40,039 nt of DNA. Source: a virus. Position 1 is the stretch's first letter; each line of letters begins with the position of its first letter. The notes below the pieces were generated by a model. The model worked only from the letters and a program-made list of their open reading frames with translations, was not told where the DNA came from and made no database searches. Where the stretch lies: positions 1 to 40,039 of IMG/VR virus record IMGVR_UViG_3300046520_000057, one strand, 5' to 3'. This document shows, in pieces, positions 12,093 through 13,982 of this stretch. Both the position numbers and the translations under genes were made by a program.

Positions 12093-12647
12093 ATGGGCCG
12101 GACGTTCGTCTGCATCGCCTCCGGCCCAAGCCTCAACGCGCGCGACTGCGAACTGGTCCGGATGTCAGGCCTTCCCACAATCGCTGTGAACAACTCATGG
12201 CAGCTAGCCCCGTGGTGCGATCACCTTTACGCAGGTGATCTCGCATGGTGGGATGCGAGCATCGCCCAAGTGCCAGATGGCCCGAAGCGCTGGAGCTGTA
12301 CGCGCCAGGCAGTGGCAAAGCATGGGTTGAACTTCCATGAAAAATACGGGGAGTACAATAGCGGCATCCGGGCGATTGAACTGGCCTTTCAGCTCGGCGC
12401 GGAACGCGTCCTGCTTCTTGGGTACGACTGCACGGTGTCCAGCGGTACGCACTGGCACGGCGACCACGAGAACACGAAGAACCCGGATGAACTCCGGTGC
12501 CGCAAATGGGCCGCGCAACACGCTCGTCTGCCGCAGCGCGATAAGGTCGTCAACTGCTCGCGTGAAACGGCGTTGGAATGCTACCGGCTCGGGTATCTTG
12601 AAAAAGAGTTGCAAAAGGTTGTTGACACTTGTGATGCGACTGACTAA
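12093..12647 (+). CDS. Rossmann-like phage protein (DUF115/glycosyltransferase-like)
   Basis: 184 aa. It opens with a strand-loop-helix FVCIASGPSLNARDCELVR that resembles the nucleotide-binding start of DUF115/6-hydroxymethylpterin pyrophosphokinase-like and sialyltransferase-like Rossmann proteins. This is followed by IAVNNSWQLAPW, YAGDLAWWD, GAERVLLLGYDCTV and THWHGDH. The same architecture occurs in many siphoviruses of proteobacteria next to head-tail genes. The likely role is sugar or nucleotide chemistry together with the GT9-like gene downstream; substrate unknown. No good SD is visible, so it may depend on coupling with the 59-aa gene. Confidence 0.65.
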   Translation: MGRTFVCIASGPSLNARDCELVRMSGLPTIAVNNSWQLAPWCDHLYAGDLAWWDASIAQVPDGPKRWSCTRQAVAKHGLNFHEKYGEYNSGIRAIELAFQLGAERVLLLGYDCTVSSGTHWHGDHENTKNPDELRCRKWAAQHARLPQRDKVVNCSRETALECYRLGYLEKELQKVVDTCDATD

Positions 12648-12729
12648 AGTTCGTTTCGTAGGGAATGCGCAGGCTGATGCGCTAAGCGTGATAGGTGACC
12701 GGATTTCTAGACCGGGTGACAGGATCGCC

Positions 12730-12800
12730 TAATTGTGTAGCTCACCGGTAGAGCGGCCGTCGAAAGCGGCGCGTTGCGGGTTCGACTCCCGCCCAATTGA
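12730..12800 (+). tRNA. tRNA-like element 1 (degenerate; anticodon position GAA)
   Basis: The D arm GCTC-ACCGGTA-GAGC (12740-12754) and T arm GCGGG-TTCGACT-CCCGC (12776-12792) are canonical. The anticodon arm is GCCG-TCGAAAG-CGGC, which puts GAA at 34-36 but C instead of T at position 33. The acceptor stem pairs TAATTG with CAATTG only with a one-base bulge (T12736), and no CCA follows. GGATC upstream (12722-12726) can pair with GATCC downstream (12799-12803), extending the stem. It may be a decayed tRNA-Phe, or a tRNA-like regulatory RNA. Confidence 0.45.
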
Positions 12801-12916
12801 TCCGGAGTTCAGCGCCGGAGCCTACAAGATCAACCAACGCCAAGACCGCGAAAGCATGGCAAGTCTGATGACCGAGTTTGCCCGTCGCTGCCCGCACATG
12901 CGGAAATCGTCTTCAT

Positions 12917-13045
12917 CGGAATTACAATTGCATACGGATTAGGCAGGCATGTCGAAATCTGAATGAGGCAGGTAGCTCAAAGTCGAGCCCACTGCAGGGG
13001 AGATCGGGGTGCAAGTCCTCGCCAGCCGCTCAGTTGTAATTACCG
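12917..13045 (+). ncRNA. Structured RNA: 14-bp helix enclosing tRNA-like element 2
   Basis: CGGAATTACAATTG (12917-12930) pairs with CAGTTGTAATTACCG (13031-13045): 14 pairs, one G-U and one bulged A. Inside lies a second cloverleaf-like fold. Its acceptor is GGCAGG/CCAGCC (12967-12972, 13022-13027; one A-A mismatch). The D arm is GCTC/GAGC (12975-12988) and the T arm CGGGG-TGCAAGT-CCTCG (13005-13021). Only 16 bases separate the D and T arms, too few for a normal anticodon plus variable arm. It is not a functional tRNA by this reading. A terminator follows 28 bases later. Confidence 0.45.
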
Positions 13046-13073
13046 ATGCAGAGGATTCAAATTCCCGTACTTC

Positions 13074-13099
13074 AACCCTGCTTCGGCGGGGTTTCTTTT
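13074..13099 (+). terminator. Rho-independent terminator after the tRNA-like interval
   Basis: Stem AACCCTGC/GCGGGGTT (one T-G pair) with TTCG loop at 13082-13085, then TCTTTT. It ends just before the SD of the glycosyltransferase gene, so it would end an RNA transcribed through the tRNA-like elements. Confidence 0.8.
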
Positions 13100-13109
13100 A
13101 GGAGTCGCA

Positions 13110-13982
13110 ATGATCATCCACGGAATGCGAGGTTTGGGCGACGCGATCTACTCCCGCGCCTTTATCAAGCAGCTACCCGGCGAAATCTACTACGACACCC
13201 CATGGCCCGAACTCGTGGCCGACCTGCCAAACGTTCACTGCACCCGCCCGCAAACCACGCTACGCACCCAGGCAAAGAACATCGCGCGCCAAGCCGTTTG
13301 GACGATGCCACCAACGCGTCAACCAACGCGCCAGATCCGCTACGGCACCGAAGGCATTATAAACGGCATGATCGGAAGCTTCGGCGTAATGCCGGGAGAG
13401 TTCGACCTTCCGCCGCTACCGCCTTCGCCCGAGTCCGGCCCGTACGTCGTTGTGCGACCTGCTACCGTGCGCAGCGAGTGGCGTGCCGATACGCGTAACC
13501 CCGAACCTTTCTACCTCCATCAAGCGGCGATTACCGCGCAGCGGAGGGGATATAAGGTTATAAGCGTCGCGGACCTAGAGGAAGGCAAAGAGTGGCATGA
13601 AGGGATGCTCCCTCCTGCCGACGTGCGCTACCACAAAGGCGAACTGCCGGTCGAACAACTGCTGGCGCTCGTCAAGGGTGCTGCTGCCGTGATCGGCGGT
13701 ATCGGCTGGTTGGTTCCTGCTGCACTCGCGGCTAAGGTGCCAGCGTGGATTATCTGCGGCGGCCAGGGTGGATTCAATTCACCGAAGCAGATCTGCCCGG
13801 ACGGAAGTACAATTACCTTCGCAGTGCCGGACAACTTTTGCCGGTGCAAGTTAAAAATTCATGAATGCGACAAGAGGATTTCCAACTATGACGCCAAGCT
13901 TACCGCGTGGGCTGACCGACACCTTGCTTTGGTCGGAGGAGCTGGGGCGCGGATTTCACACGCGGCCAGCAATGCGCTATGA
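13110..13982 (+). CDS. GT9-like glycosyltransferase (heptosyltransferase-like)
   Basis: 290 aa, GT-B style. The start MIIHGMRGLGDAIYSRAF is the family glycine-rich N-terminal loop (compare GxGD in ADP-heptose:LPS heptosyltransferases). YVVVRPATVRSEWR opens the second Rossmann half, and VKGAAAVIGGIGWLVPAALA with the following GGFNSPKQICPDG fits the donor-binding C-terminal part. It would move a sugar from a nucleotide donor; the acceptor could be virion protein, host LPS or another glycan. AGGAG precedes the ATG closely. A longer reading frame from 12963 crosses the structured RNA and terminator and is not credible. The 3' end overlaps the methyltransferase gene by 95 bases. Confidence 0.7.
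   Translation: MIIHGMRGLGDAIYSRAFIKQLPGEIYYDTPWPELVADLPNVHCTRPQTTLRTQAKNIARQAVWTMPPTRQPTRQIRYGTEGIINGMIGSFGVMPGEFDLPPLPPSPESGPYVVVRPATVRSEWRADTRNPEPFYLHQAAITAQRRGYKVISVADLEEGKEWHEGMLPPADVRYHKGELPVEQLLALVKGAAAVIGGIGWLVPAALAAKVPAWIICGGQGGFNSPKQICPDGSTITFAVPDNFCRCKLKIHECDKRISNYDAKLTAWADRHLALVGGAGARISHAASNAL

Follow-up and report, generated by a model that had tools for sequence, protein, structure and literature searches.

The question raised by this locus is whether tRNA-like sequences lying between two phage genes are the remains of decaying tRNA genes or parts of a dedicated non-coding RNA. The window, the whole stretch of 40,039 nucleotides that was analysed, is a siphovirus-like contig that includes genes for a terminase, portal, capsid and tape measure and also encodes a DNA polymerase, a Gp2.5-like SSB and a primase-helicase. 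The gap in question spans 12648–13109 (462 bases) and contains no conserved ORF, in agreement with the original prediction that it holds no credible gene. It is bounded by the following genes.

12093–12647, plus strand: phrog_4603, sialyltransferase-like, flanking the gap upstream; directly adjoins phrog_6804 in distant relatives
13110–13982, plus strand: downstream flanking gene, phrog_6804; the gene whose IMG/VR relatives were collected

Compensatory changes in an outer stem, the stems of the tRNA-like fold and a pair of kissing loops favour a dedicated RNA over simple decay, which was also the original preference. With a probability of about 0.9, the sequences point to an RNA-only insertion made up of exchangeable structured modules, in which a constant frame surrounds a hypervariable insert. 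Two features had been missed previously, namely that the tRNA-like fold is an insert within a much more widely conserved frame, and that the locus as a whole is a promoter-RNA-terminator insertion with hypervariable content.

The signals for transcription were predicted using a consensus scan.

12601–12650, plus strand: predicted promoter block, TTGACA (12622–12627) and TAAAGT (12645–12650) separated by 17 nt
13074–13100, plus strand: predicted intrinsic terminator; T-run hairpins are found at the same place in relatives

The promoter-like site (12622–12650) is an addition to the original description. The TAAAGT overlaps the stop codon of the upstream gene, and the terminator-like hairpin itself (13074–13093) begins exactly where a terminator had been proposed. 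Of the IMG/VR relatives of the downstream gene, 80 were retained and the 23 close ones were compared. In these 23 the flanking genes are approximately 75% identical (67–78% at the start of the downstream gene), and positions 12601–12635 are 94–100% identical while the adjoining end of the upstream coding region is 67–90% identical. The RNA stretch shares only 27–66% identity with a median of 48%, compared to 49% for shuffled letters. In five distant relatives there is no gap at all between the two flanking genes. As these genes abut in distant relatives, and a predicted promoter and terminator are present in the window, the locus resembles a moron-like insertion with RNA content.

The RNA stretches of the relatives are mosaics, built from shared islands that are combined differently. 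The parts include frame modules, the GATCAACCAACGCC linker, tRNA-Trp or tRNA-Gln genes, and modules with closing helices of 18–24 bp, which differ in sequence but keep their pairing. In the close relatives inspected, no intact tRNA gene was found in place of the tRNA-like insert, and the tRNA-Trp genes are separate modules. The linker of the window has an ordinary folding energy relative to shuffles.

12827–12903, plus strand: linker module GATCAACCAACGCC ... CCGCACATGCGG, approximately 85–91% identical in seven relatives

In two relatives (L157 and L158), a CDS that by eye resembles an HNH endonuclease lies between the RNA locus and the phrog_6804 gene, and could be an agent of module spread.

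The first RNA module, at the left end of the gap, is the frame with its insert.

12653–12831, plus strand: module 1, kissing-hairpin frame RNA with a tRNA-like insert; 65.8 bits (E 7e-15) with covariance model R1, a score that is partly by construction as R1 was built from 50 sequences including the window
12658–12662, plus strand: P1 5' strand, GUAGG, pairing with 12821–12825; P1 covaries in 50 frames
12667–12682, plus strand: P2 hairpin, loop GGCUGA, kissing bases GCUGA at 12673–12677
12801–12819, plus strand: P3 hairpin, loop AGUUCAGCG, kissing bases UCAGC at 12809–12813
12821–12825, plus strand: P1 3' strand, CCUAC, partner of 12658–12662

Three relatives from the same locus that were outside the R1 training set (L165, L169 and L170) scored 50.7, 51.3 and 75.2 bits, respectively, and the frame model recovered most of the other test loci. 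Read side by side, the frames share a constant order: P1, which varies in sequence, then GAAU, P2, an insert of 6–175 nt, P3 and the other strand of P1. The consensus hairpins are GCGCA-GGCUGA-UGCGC for P2 and GCCGG-AGAUCAGCA-CCGGC for P3. In an alignment of 50 frames (A1), for which P1 pairing was not a selection criterion, nine of the ten P1 pairs change on both sides and 134 double-change cells were counted, compared to 47 in shuffles (none of 500 reached this value). Sliding the partner strand by 1–3 columns reduced P1 pairing from 91% to 29–45%. The larger set of 162 members did require P1 pairing and a GCTGA loop. The covariation proposed as a check of the original prediction is thus strong among homologues of the first RNA.

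The loops of P2 and P3 are complementary (GCUGA/UCAGC) in 118 members, a constancy that is inflated because members were gathered using exact P3 or 5' patterns and filters that required P2/P3 pairing. Compensated loops were also found. L169 has GCUAA with UUAGC, and four members of the tRNA-like class (L231, L233, L235 and L237) have each lost one base per loop such that GCGA with UCGC remain. A kissing contact between P2 and P3 is well supported by these sequences, though not proven. The folding energy of module 1 is ordinary compared to shuffles (z 0.0), so the case for this element rests on covariation and homologues; the gap as a whole (12648–13109) is mildly below its shuffles (z -1.48). 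The P3 loop in Pseudomonas phage Marin (L002) does not contain UCAGC. A conserved block, CAGTGCTCTTTCCG, was seen upstream of P1 in six stretches and is common among the enterobacterial members.

Between P2 and P3, the frame of the window carries a hairpin, P4, followed by a tRNA-like domain.

12699–12715, plus strand: P4 hairpin of the insert class, CCGG / loop AUUUCUAGA / CCGG; variable pair CG in nine and GC in six of 15 sequences, with no mismatch
12730–12799, plus strand: tRNA-like domain, identified by ARAGORN, the Rfam tRNA model and compensatory changes in 15 homologues
12730–12735 (UAAUUG) and 12794–12799 (CAAUUG), plus strand: acceptor
12740–12743 and 12751–12754, plus strand: D stem
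12756–12759 and 12767–12770, plus strand: anticodon-like stem, loop UCGAAAG (C33)
12776–12792, plus strand: T arm

The search pattern allowed C or G to vary independently at the variable pair of P4, and 15 of 15 sequences were complementary. Two tRNA-like folds had been proposed in the gap. The first was found by both programs: ARAGORN made a single call, Phe(gaa), at 12730–12800, and the Rfam tRNA model gave 33.2 bits on the interval alone against a cutoff of 29. Nothing passed, tRNA included, when the whole window was scanned with Rfam in a faster mode. The second fold was called by neither program and is not confirmed as a tRNA. Across the tested loci, no Rfam 15 family except tRNA reached its threshold; weak matches to Tymo_tRNA-like, YrlA, istR and RsmY fell far under the cutoff and were set aside, those to istR and RsmY covering the terminator only.

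At least 15 distinct inserts, that of the window included, form a class in which the tRNA-like domain comes after a conserved hairpin (stem CCGG or CGGG, loop RUUYCUAGR). The acceptor-like helix is compensated across the class (AAUUG/CAAUU, AACCG/CGGUU, CCAUG/CAUGG, CGGUA/UACCG, UUGGUA/UACCAA), as are three of four pairs in the anticodon stem and four of five in the T stem. The whole tRNA-like structure has 80 double-change cells compared to 25.8 in shuffles (reached in none of 500), and the acceptor, anticodon and T stems had not been selected for in the class alignment (A4). In L165, the nearest relative, the loop is still UCGAAAG while the stem has changed from GCCG/CGGC to GCUC/GGGC.

The bulged acceptor and C33 noted at first sight in this fold are both present, the latter in the loop UCGAAAG at 12760–12766. 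The acceptor, D, anticodon and T arms of a decoding tRNA can all be identified in the insert. A seven-base anticodon loop with U33 was not found, as the window has C33 and members of the class mostly lack U33 or have loops of 4–6 nt (the loops seen are UCGAAAG, UCAAAGU, CGCAAA, CCCAAA, CAAAA and UCGC). Nor was there a free CCA-bearing 3' end, because CAAUUG continues as AUCCGG into P3 with no CCA. Since the irregular acceptor and the non-U33 or short loop recur across the class, they are features of the class. Judged from its sequence, the insert is a tRNA mimic in shape and not a decoding tRNA, and simple decay of a tRNA is rejected on the covariation together with the loop features common to the class. 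A pairing of GCGUGA...GAUCGC around P4 was also tried by hand and fails in the homologues. The palindrome in the P4 loop (CCUAGG/UCUAGA, 12706–12711 in the window) covaries across the class and may close a CUAG tetraloop as an inner pair or else mediate a dimer contact.

The second fold forms a module of a different kind.

12914–13048, plus strand: module 2, a fold with a closing helix of 17 bp, 12914–12930 with 13031–13048

The closing helix reported previously is present, and its length is corrected from 14 bp to 17 bp with one bulged A. D-like (12975–12988) and T-like (13005–13021) arms can be read by eye. The segment 12908–13050 is unusually stable (z -3.16, 1/200 shuffles). The length of the helix is not evidence in itself, as the longest uninterrupted helix is 11 bp and was matched in 40 of 60 shuffles. 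No homologue of module 2 was found in phage records and an exact 19-nt scan matched three loci. The module fills the slot where relatives hold the modules closed by 18–24-bp helices. In ten relatives the modules in this third slot have closing helices of 18–24 bp and start with UUGCACCA. A downstream third copy of UUGCACC in these modules could pair with the same GGUGCAA strand, giving exclusive pairings or a shared strand. In one relative (L176, 2164–2262), a frame is found in the tail of a helix-closed module, with P1 formed by GGUGCAAU/GUUGCACC, indicating that modules can share strands. Marin has a second element (L002, approximately 2740–2880) closed by GCGGCTACG/CGTAGCCGC that contains two T-arm-like hairpins and is like module 2 of the window.

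The frame is not confined to relatives of the window. A 26-base segment (12663–12688) is identical in Erwinia phage Gungnir39 and a longer BLAST match was found in Marin, while scans of IMG/VR found 10 stretches for the 5' element and at least 120 for its 3' partner. BLAST matches to the 5' element were found in 235 phage records, 642 plasmid records and 1260 of 5426 complete E. coli genomes, counts obtained with short queries and lax E-value limits in which each match stands for the element and not for a confirmed full structure. In the genus to which L274 (titled Pseudomonas moorei) belongs, the frame model matched 23 of 149 genomes. Some matches in genome contigs are bare 19-nt matches to P3 (25.3 bits) and are probably due to chance.

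In HK620, the frame is located between pR'/qut and the tQ terminator, ahead of the holin gene. P7 has one clear and one weak frame in a C1-controlled region, tRNA-Asn/Thr ... tRNA-Ile. In D3 the frame precedes three tRNAs, and it is also found just ahead of tRNAs in Klebsiella phage KP591P1, Hafnia phage Meifeng, Erwinia phage phiEt88 and Escherichia phage ASO78B. It adjoins the repressor gene in mEp460, EPP-1, PAJU2 and E. coli prophages, and is present in PY54 and in many prophages. Positions close to tRNAs, or in the interval from Q to the lysis genes, are frequent. A tRNA was found within 600 nt of 12.7% of frames compared to 2.2% of controls, and a terminator-like site within 250 nt downstream of 26% compared to 5%. 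Among the PHROG neighbours sampled, Q was found upstream and holin or endolysin downstream, with terminase, ssb, glycosyltransferase and HNH genes also seen.

The inserts are exchanged between otherwise similar loci. The 162 distinct frames include 159 inserts of at least 25 nt, which group by similarity into 115 clusters, of which 92 have a single member. The tRNA-like L238 and L131 have flanks that are 98–100% identical around inserts that are 36% alike, and PAJU2 (L147) and L081 have flanks that are 92–100% identical and inserts that are 41% alike. Minimal inserts of 6 nt (L127) and 12 nt (L091) were also found, suggesting that an insert may be dispensable for the frame. Pseudoknot-like inserts with stems that appear compensated by eye were seen in L042 (4162–4255), L135 (4012–4108), L064, L099 and L138, with the patterns GAGG..ACUGG..CCUC..CCAGU and GGG..CUUGU..CCC..ACAAG.

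A trans-acting accessory RNA, in which the constant frame displays a variable decoy domain, is the mechanism we tentatively favour, at somewhat short of even odds for the complete scheme. The transcript from the locus would be a stable RNA acting in trans, and the constant frame would protect it or be the site at which a common host factor binds. The working end would be the exchangeable domain, which would mimic a host RNA and may occupy, decoy or regulate a host RNA-handling protein or RNA. For the tRNA-like class, the likeliest targets would be tRNA enzymes or tRNA-cutting defences. Diversifying selection combined with module swapping would explain the differing inserts between near-identical flanks. 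A trans-acting handle with a mimicking end is favoured because the inserts are both structured and fast-changing. However, many of the inserts are not tRNA-like, so a single class of target cannot account for them all.

The strongest rival, which we consider unlikely, is a cis-acting element of the HK022 put or rrn type, in which the nascent frame would bind the elongating RNA polymerase and antiterminate while the insert is an idle extension. The positions of many members at operon heads (pL, pR', tRNA operons) also fit a cis role, with frames found in the pR' leader of HK620 before tQ, beside repressors and upstream of tRNAs. The excess of terminator-like sites within 250 nt downstream (26% against 5%) and the existence of minimal inserts point the same way, and put is likewise a two-hairpin phage RNA (PMC9378689). 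However, HK620 already carries Q, the frame in P7 lies after tRNAs within the operon, and the inserts are structured and covary within classes, as idle extensions would not. Such an element would also not be a homologue of put, as no convincing match was found in HK022: the frame model gave only one weak match, in the nin region, over 24.5–40.8 kb, and no match in 24.5–30.1 kb, the stretch we take to contain pL. The nin-region sequence (L140, 3580–3696; 15.3 bits, E 0.041) may be a diverged member or a chance match.

Two further rivals appear improbable, to a similar degree. The frame could be a building block of an RNA-only assembly like those of GOLLD and ROOL; the frames would then form oligomers, and the insert would be carried as cargo or lie on the surface. 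GOLLD and ROOL also originate in phages or prophages near tRNAs and have a linker that can hold tRNAs (PMC12286853), and in the tRNA-like class the loop of P4 is a covarying palindrome (CCUAGG/UCUAGA), but this palindrome is limited to one insert class, the frame is far smaller at 60–200 nt, and the P2 and P3 loops pair inside one molecule at a fixed spacing. Alternatively, the RNA could be a small RNA or sponge that works by base-pairing, its insert exposing a seed for an RNA of host or phage, in the manner of AgvB acting on GcvB. Phage sRNAs of this group at pR' moron sites, AgvB among them, do have both variable and conserved parts (PMC4104026), but in the class studied the inserts are highly structured and their stems compensated, which leaves few unpaired bases for a seed. 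That the locus is a recombination hot spot gathering decaying tRNA genes as neutral remains, as the mosaic structure, the real tRNA-Trp and tRNA-Gln genes there in relatives and the ordinary folding energies of module 1 and the linker might suggest, is very improbable and already largely refuted by the compensatory changes throughout, the loop 'defects' shared by 15 homologues, a promoter that is 94–100% identical in relatives and a frame kept across phages of many hosts.

On a wider reading, the frame may be part of a phage-wide RNA display, with one kissing-hairpin scaffold, open-ended exchangeable folds and, in some phages, stacked modules forming an RNA-based accessory arsenal. This reading, under which a promoter-RNA-terminator locus would turn over as fast as protein counter-defence loci, is possible but doubtful.

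More than 160 distinct members were found, including some in well-studied phages (P7, HK620, D3, mEp460, PY54), yet the frame is missing from Rfam 15. Searches of the literature by core sequence or topic found analogues only and not the frame, with most subscription papers lying outside the search. Structured phage RNAs near tRNAs are a known kind, examples being GOLLD, ROOL and rnaC and rnaD of T4. What appears to be new is the frame family, with its exchangeable inserts, and the RNA-only hypervariable locus. The design of a constant frame with a variable insert differs from that of the RNA families compared, and the frame makes the question of the function of stable phage RNAs such as T4 rnaC/rnaD, GOLLD and ROOL testable in laboratory E. 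coli. Should the inserts prove to be decoys, they would provide a readable list of host RNA-handling targets.

GOLLD and ROOL are large structured RNAs of phages and prophages found near tRNA islands. Like the frame RNAs, they are phage- or prophage-encoded, often near tRNAs, and have a conserved and a variable part, and tRNAs can lie within the linker of GOLLD (PMC12286853). The frame differs in its much smaller size, its two kissing hairpins and the wholesale exchange of its insert, and no Rfam match to GOLLD or ROOL was found in the window or the tested loci. The T4 RNAs rnaC and rnaD, the stable RNAs known as species 1 and 2 (PMC9697503), are likewise non-tRNA phage RNAs beside a tRNA cluster. 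Homology to them was rejected, as the frame model found no match in the T4 tRNA region. T4 rnaC (L326, 1409–1547, minus strand) ends in a T-arm-like hairpin, GGGUUCGAAUCCC, and tRNA-like parts may be common in non-tRNA phage RNAs.

HK022 put resembles the frame in being found at operon heads, and differs in being approximately 70 nt without an insert, and neither an outer stem nor a loop-loop contact is described in the available part of the source (PMC9378689). Like a phage moron, the locus is inserted between genes that abut in relatives and has a predicted promoter and terminator, but its content is RNA only and differs between relatives. AgvB and the other prophage anti-sRNAs are also phage RNAs from moron sites in which a variable part mimics a host RNA. 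AgvB is a short, Hfq-bound sRNA that acts by base-pairing, and no kissing frame or tRNA-like domain has been described for it (PMC4104026). As AgvB acts by mimicry from a moron site, it provides a precedent for mimicry by phage RNAs at such sites (PMC4104026).
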